Origin: Lentisphaerota bacterium
GTDB lineage: Bacteria > Verrucomicrobiota > Kiritimatiellia > UBA8416 > JABMPJ01
NCBI GenBank assembly: GCA_013203785.1
Contig: JABMPJ010000106.1
Coordinates: forward strand, 1 to 46,775
DNA: 46,775 nt
Reading direction: 5' to 3'
Positions 26,290 to 27,382 of this stretch are shown one piece after another. The notes beneath the pieces are model-generated. The model searched no databases. It saw only the letters and a program-made list of their open reading frames with translations, and was not told the origin of the DNA. Every line of letters starts with the position of its first letter. The stretch's first letter is position 1. The translations under genes were made by a program, and so were the position numbers.

Positions 26290-26314
26290 GGCGGCATGCC
26301 TTATCACCGAGGGA

Positions 26315-26336
26315 GCGCCCCGGAGGTCCGGGGCGC
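26315..26336 (-). terminator. Strong GC hairpin between the small basic protein and the TPR gene
   Basis: GCGCCCCGG and CCGGGGCGC (26315-26323 and 26328-26336) form a perfect 9-bp stem with a 4-nt loop. It lies 34 bp after the stop of the 29-residue gene and just before the TPR gene. No U tract follows, so it may be an attenuating or stabilising hairpin rather than a full terminator. Confidence 0.5.
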
Positions 26337-26370
26337 CGATCCACGGCGGTTGTTATGGCAAGAGAGGGTC

Positions 26371-26460
26371 TTACTTGTTCTTGTGTCGGTCAGCACGCTT
26401 CCGCTTACGGTACTTGTGCTTCGACATCTTCTTGATACGCTTCTTCTTGATTGAACCCAC
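26371..26460 (-). CDS. AURKAIP1/COX24-domain (bS22-like) small basic ribosomal protein
   Basis: A 29-residue frame starts at GTG 26460 with a clear GGGAGAG Shine-Dalgarno 5 bp upstream. It reads (M)GSIKKKRIKKMSKHKYRK then RKRADRHKNK, more than half Lys/Arg. This matches the short AURKAIP1/COX24 motif (GSxxKKRRKKMxKKKxKK...RHxxxK) known from the bacterial 30S protein bS22 and mitochondrial mS38, which lie near the decoding/mRNA exit region. It follows hisG by 28 bp on the same strand and may be cotranscribed with it. Genes this short are usually missed in automatic annotation. Confidence 0.85.
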   Translation of the reverse strand: MGSIKKKRIKKMSKHKYRKRKRADRHKNK

Positions 26461-26488
26461 GTTGCTCTCCCTTACCAGACCCTGGCCG

Positions 26489-27382
26489 TCAGTCGATCAC
26501 TTTATTGAGAGGAATCTCAATAATGCCTTCGGCTCCTGCCTTCTTCAGTTGCGGGATAATCTCCCGCACCACTTTCTCATCCACAACCGTCTCGATCGCC
26601 GCCCACGCTGCATCCTGCAGGTGGTTGATCGTCGGTGCGTGCAGCGAGGGAAGCACGTTCGTCAGCGCCTCCACATCACTTGATTTTGCATTCATCTTTA
26701 GCAGAACCTTGCTTTCTGCGGCGAGTGCGCCAGTCAGAAGCATGGCCAACTGTTCAACCTTGCTTCGTTTCCAGGGATCTTCCCAGGCCGCGCGGTTGAT
26801 GATGAAGCGTGTTGTAGACTCAATAACGTCGTCGACAATGCGTAGATTATTGGCGCGTAGGGATGACCCGGTTTCGGTCAGCTCCACAATCGCATCCACC
26901 AATTCGGGGCACTTGACTTCAGTGGCCCCCCAAGAGAACTCCACTTCGGCGTGAACGCCATGCTTGTCGAGGTAGCTTTGGGTCAGTCCGACGGCCTCCG
27001 TGGCAATGCGTTTGCCCTCCAAATCCTTGGGCGAATGGATGTCTGAATTTTCGGGAACGGCGACCACCCAGCGAACGGGCCGGAAGCCCTGCTTGGCATA
27101 GAGGAGCTCGCACACCTCGACCACATCGGAGTTGTTCTCGACGATCCAGTCGTGTCCGGTAATTCCTGCATCCAGAACGCCACTCTCAACGTAACGGCTG
27201 ATTTCCTGCGCCCGGATCAGGCGCGCATCCAGCTCAGGATCATCGATCTTGGGCAGGTAAGAGCGGGAGCTTCCGCCAATATTGAAGCCCGCCTTCTTAA
27301 AAATCATGAAGGTCGATTCCTGTAGGCTTCCCTTGGGCAGGCCCAGAATCAATTGTCGTTTGCTATCGCTCATTACGGTCAT
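26489..27382 (-). CDS. hisG: ATP phosphoribosyltransferase, long form
   Basis: The product is 297 residues, the length of the long HisG type with a C-terminal histidine-sensing ACT-like domain. It catalyses the first step of histidine synthesis, ATP plus PRPP. Visible motifs are [13 protein letters not shown] at the start, [13 protein letters not shown], the PRPP-binding-loop region [20 protein letters not shown], and the regulatory domain after about 215 ending [22 protein letters not shown]. The start is either 27382 or the in-frame ATG at 27373; neither has a strong ribosome binding site. No other his genes are nearby. Confidence 0.96.

Follow-up and report, generated by a model that had tools for sequence, protein, structure and literature searches.

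The window analysed here is a stretch of 46,775 nucleotides, and the gene of interest is a 29-residue open reading frame on its minus strand. The translation from 26460 to 26371 is MGSIKKKRIKKMSKHKYRKRKRADRHKNK; its first codon is GTG (26460-26458), its last is TAA (26373-26371), and the same frame with its terminator reads VGSIKKKRIKKMSKHKYRKRKRADRHKNK followed by the stop. Lysine and arginine make up 55% of the peptide. A preliminary description of this DNA had given the coordinates and the length, both of which are exact, as well as initiation at GTG, which the translation bears out; the strand was absent from it. The plus-strand frame over the same positions (LLVLVSVSTLPLT...) resembles no member of the family, and the plus-strand reading was dropped. 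The features of the locus are the following:

26371 to 26460, minus strand: bS22-like gene (PF08213 / COX24_C family), 29 aa, identified by profile match, conservation and selection.
26464 to 26476 (approximate bounds), minus strand: Shine-Dalgarno-like leader GGTAAGGGAGAGC, from the reading of the leader and a 4-mer count.
26489 to 27382, minus strand: hisG, encoding the long form of ATP phosphoribosyltransferase that includes HisG_C; it is immediately upstream of the small gene and scores above the cut-offs of TIGR00070 and TIGR03455.
26305 to 26348, minus strand: stable hairpin, a possible transcript end; MFE -34.3 kcal/mol, z -4.73, with 0 of 200 shuffles as stable.

Judged from comparison of sequences, the frame at 26371-26460 is a real gene under selection. 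A leave-genus-out profile made from 48 sequences of the class, with the gene's own genus left out, scores it at 54.4 bits; the runner-up frame in the window reaches 5.4 bits, and the top score among 200 dinucleotide-preserving shuffles of the window is 9.7 bits. Pooled pairwise comparison of codons 2-28 in five genomes of the same genus (G000-G004) gives a pS of 0.395 vs a pN of 0.025, and such an excess of synonymous change is the mark of a translated and selected protein. The profile score against the shuffles, together with this synonymous bias, rules out a chance open frame. One reverse frame shows a weaker bias in the same comparison (pS 0.26, pN 0.05); a second gene there was considered and rejected, the bias being read as a mirror of the third positions of the bS22-like frame. 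Residues M1, G2, K6, R8, H15, K16, K19, R25, H26 and K27 are invariant in 27 aligned members. The lysine- and arginine-rich composition lifts similarity, but the shuffles and the invariant G2, R8, H15 and H26 argue against composition as its sole cause.

The protein matches PF08213 (COX24_C) over profile positions 1-27 of 33 with 28.6 bits, above the cut-off of 23 (E value 1.4e-6), and all 27 aligned members match this family; the AURKAIP1/COX24 motif type named in the preliminary description is thus borne out. The NCBIfam equivalog for bS22, NF047430, gives 19.0 bits (E value 0.0012), under its cut-off of 34. NF047430 does not cover all bS22 proteins, since the 29-residue bS22 chain of Flavobacterium johnsoniae matches neither it nor PF08213. 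For the window protein we use the term bS22-like, without assigning it to NF047430. For searches of the PDB and of the phylum we used a profile of 27 members, A1. Chains of bS22 and mS38 are the top 18 of 24 rows returned by A1 from the PDB, five of them at E 0.001 or less and the others weaker. The best five (9j1m, 7jil, 6xyw, 9evs and 9i5v) have E values from 2.7e-5 to 8.6e-4, among them 9j1m_x at 2.7e-5, F. johnsoniae bS22 (7jil_5) at 1.3e-4 with 29 of 29 positions aligned, and the mS38 chain 6xyw_BB at 1.4e-4. The mycobacterial-type, Cutibacterium acnes and Borrelia bS22 chains follow at E 0.01 to 0.06 (8crx_X of C. acnes 0.018, 8fmw_V of Borrelia 0.061). The single window sequence alone matches the PDB weakly, with a best E value of 0.11. 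In length (about 28-33 aa across the family), in being more than half basic, in its conserved motif and in its homology to solved bS22 and mS38 chains, the protein has the features of bS22. Codon conservation, purifying selection and the PF08213 match together support its earlier designation as a bS22/COX24-like ribosomal protein.

The sequence 5' of the GTG reads GGTAAGGGAGAGCAAC and is Shine-Dalgarno-like, so that the ribosome-binding site claimed for this frame is indeed present. A 4-mer of the AAGGAGG type lies at -18 to -4 in 53 of 53 class genomes vs 168 of 739 control sites in the window. For comparison, such a 4-mer precedes one of the first four starts in 23 of 36 long frames of the window, with GTG in 5 of the 23; this baseline is rough, the 36 frames having been picked by length rather than by a gene finder. 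In the genome itself the 16S 3' end was matched only at places with 2 mismatches, 6 of them vs 4 in a backward control, too small an excess to establish the anti-Shine-Dalgarno sequence. The codon preceding the conserved glycine is GTG in 27 and ATG in 26 of the 53 class genomes and never another codon, and the protein is 28-33 aa long in all of them. GTG starts are found in 5 of 5 members of the gene's own genus and at 0 of 24 loci sampled outside the class; the share of GTG is given as a plain observation rather than as an enrichment. Thirteen of the 24 loci outside the class (L137, L138, L141-L143, L145, L146 and L150-L155) lack a Shine-Dalgarno-like 4-mer.

The window's hisG has its closest named relatives, at 85-86% identity, in three MAGs named Kiritimatiellia or Kiritimatiellae and in one Verrucomicrobia MAG. 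The genome itself holds one match to the bS22-like gene, which is thus single copy. Within the class (own genome included), PF08213 finds the gene in 53 of 57 genomes at an E value of 1 or less, and in 43 of 57 above its cut-off. The other four class genomes, G017, G022, G029 and G038 (68-91% complete), give no match with PF08213 or with the family profile. The preliminary description had held that a lack of conservation in relatives would count against the gene; presence in 53 of 57 class genomes, with purifying selection, excludes that outcome. We take a set of 288 genomes to be Verrucomicrobiota in a broad sense that includes Kiritimatiellia and Lentisphaeria, because one of them (G297) agrees in the position and score of its match with the genome of a Lentisphaeria-named MAG (G324). 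Across this set A1 at E 0.001 matches 282, a count in which some genomes match by construction because part of the rows of A1 come from them. For genomes with a completeness of 90% or more and a contamination of 5% or less the count is 248 of 251. The genomes missed are G151, G165 and G174, all of the gene's own class and 91-96% complete, and G221, G276 and G294. There is one match per genome, except in G268 with two, as in a single-copy core gene. PF08213 at E 0.01 finds 198 of the 288 and so undercounts relative to A1. The bS22-like gene is therefore near-universal across the phylum, as expected for a core ribosomal protein.

As a check on specificity, A1 at E 0.01 matched 0 of 6 genomes named, from their hisG contigs, as Chlorobiaceae (G319), Planctomicrobium (G321), Roseithermus (G322), Desulfotomaculum (G330), Geomonas (G344) and Lentisphaerae (G332). 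The same run covered 24 genomes, of which 11 matched; the 13 without a match were those six and seven class genomes (G017, G022, G029, G038, G151, G165 and G174). The gene thus looks to be absent from the Lentisphaerae MAG. A bS22-like frame in a Spirochaetes MAG, MPSVKKKRRAKIAKHKRKKKLRRNRHKNKKK (L139:1498-1596), scores 35.8 bits with the class profile.

The gene had been placed after hisG, and it does start 28 bp downstream of the hisG stop on the same strand. This arrangement is general in the class: hisG is directly upstream on the same strand in 52 of 53 genomes, with a gap of 11-223 bp from stop to start, and in the 53rd (G024) the contig ends 148 bp upstream of the bS22-like gene. The pair is found in 1 of 19 regions from other families of the phylum (L140) and in 2 (L172 and L174) of 6 more genomes, which belong to the phylum but not to the class and had gone unmatched by PF08213; flanks of about 1.5-2.5 kb were inspected for hisG. 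Eight of 80 named hisG loci have the bS22-like gene: five that are near the window's group or named Kiritimatiellae, and three in MAGs with other names, a PVC-group MAG (L036), a Verrucomicrobia MAG (L086) and an Omnitrophica MAG (L071). The other named loci of the 80, including Chlorobi, Bacillota, Desulfovibrio and Latescibacterota, show no bS22-like gene near hisG. The Omnitrophica frame (L071:3896-4048, L176) is a weak match of 20 bits directly behind hisG; no other genome without a PVC or Verrucomicrobiota name showed the pairing. From this pattern the pairing looks either ancient with frequent losses, or acquired on more than one occasion.

The hairpin at 26305-26348 stands between the bS22-like gene and a TPR gene and has no T-run after it. 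In the four relatives of the same genus this position is likewise occupied by a hairpin, whose stem letters differ, as judged by eye. A hairpin with a T-run follows soon after the bS22-like stop in several other members of the class, e.g. G006, G032 and G054.

The frame very probably encodes a bS22-like protein of the small ribosomal subunit, with a role as in known bS22, translated from the hisG transcript. The peptide would be made from the 3' end of that transcript, starting at GUG with its own Shine-Dalgarno site, if the two genes are co-transcribed, as is likely, and the transcript may end near the hairpin. The bS22 proteins of Borrelia and C. acnes are described as a basic helix in a 16S rRNA pocket formed by h2, h27, h44 and h45, and as contacting H67 or H68 of the 23S rRNA in an additional intersubunit bridge (PMC10618245, PMC10085706). 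By homology, the 29-residue basic peptide is predicted to adopt a bent helical fold within the h2/h27/h44/h45 pocket and to touch H67/H68 across the subunit interface, where it might stabilise the upper end of h44 next to the decoding centre. Loss of mS38 in yeast is reported to impair initiation on some messages and is predicted to free h44 (PMC6582356).

The pairing with hisG invites a further reading, in which the protein is bS22 and the pair is also regulatory, either with output tied to the histidine or purine state or with the GUG aiding self-limited translation. It adds to the bS22 explanation without conflicting with it, and we consider it rather unlikely. The pair seems old, being present in nearly all of the class, at L140, L172, L174, L036 and L086 and in one Omnitrophica MAG, and the GTG start of about half the class members recurs in Borrelia bS22. 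However, GTG is confined to part of the class, with many members starting at ATG, many families are without the pair, and plain inheritance of gene order accounts for both features. A wider proposal, which we put forward as doubtful, is that bS22 is general in all Verrucomicrobiota in the wide sense and was overlooked for its size. It would have started out paired with hisG in an ancient unit of two genes, which would still connect translation with histidine synthesis in Kiritimatiellia.

A quite improbable alternative is a basic peptide of this family that is conserved and translated but acts mainly away from the ribosome, for example as an RNA chaperone or as a regulatory peptide belonging to the hisG transcript. 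The constancy of hisG upstream in the class would suit such a peptide, and free C. acnes bS22 is reported to inhibit growth and in vitro translation, so that members of the family can act off the ribosome (PMC10085706). Yet the link to hisG is rare in the other families of the phylum (the 1 of 19 and 2 of 6 above) while the sequence is conserved in 282 of 288 genomes, and the solved members are located in the small subunit. That the locus is a chance lysine- and arginine-rich frame, or that what is conserved behind hisG is an RNA or a terminator with no protein product, is hardly credible, for although the frame is short and a stable hairpin lies downstream, its 54.4 bits stand against at most 9.7 in shuffled windows, its pS far exceeds its pN, and the 53 class members have uniform lengths and, without exception, ATG or GTG ahead of the conserved glycine.

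The preferred reading, a bS22-like ribosomal protein, is ordinary in kind: neither the type of protein nor the GUG start is new. Actinobacteria, Bacteroidetes and Borrelia were already known to have bS22. The authors of the Borrelia study predicted more such finds, and they also described both the GUG start and the missing annotation (PMC10618245). The claim that this locus extends the distribution of bS22 is right, but the extension is milder than it sounds with three groups, including Borrelia, already known. In the open-licence literature searched we found no mention of bS22 or AURKAIP1 in Verrucomicrobiota, and protein databases may well already carry PF08213 annotations for proteins of this phylum. 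What is new here is the near-universality of the gene in the phylum and its pairing with hisG, seen also outside the class. A large phylum thereby gains a near-universal tiny ribosomal protein, and gene finders gain a checkable case. It has been suggested in print that bS22 and mS38 may accompany translation without Shine-Dalgarno sequences (PMC6582356). Since the class nearly always has the gene, with Shine-Dalgarno-like leaders in 53 of 53 cases, lineages lacking such leaders are not the only ones with the bS22-like protein.

Among known systems, bS22 of Borrelia burgdorferi (bb0822, 8fmw chain V) is alike in being short (28 residues in the deposited chain) and basic and in its GUG start and motif type; it had been missing from the annotation, as the window gene is said to be in the preliminary description. 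It differs in having been seen by cryo-EM and in belonging to another phylum, and only its residues 5-28 align, weakly, to the profile. The Mycobacterium and Cutibacterium proteins (NF047430; 5o61, 8crx) share the MGS-type start, KKRRK and MSK, and the Pfam family name DUF1713 / AURKAIP1/COX24; unlike the window protein, which falls short of NF047430, they have 33 residues, and the match is limited to positions 1-25. In mitochondrial mS38 / AURKAIP1 / COX24 the motif is described near the C-terminus of a longer protein (PMC3726836), but the motif itself is common to both, and mS38 of 6xyw shares SVKKKRKKKMNKHKYRK. F. johnsoniae bS22 (7jil chain 5) begins with MPS where the window protein has MGS and scores in neither PF08213 nor NF047430, but it aligns at all 29 positions, and an end of the RANRHKKK type is common to both proteins.
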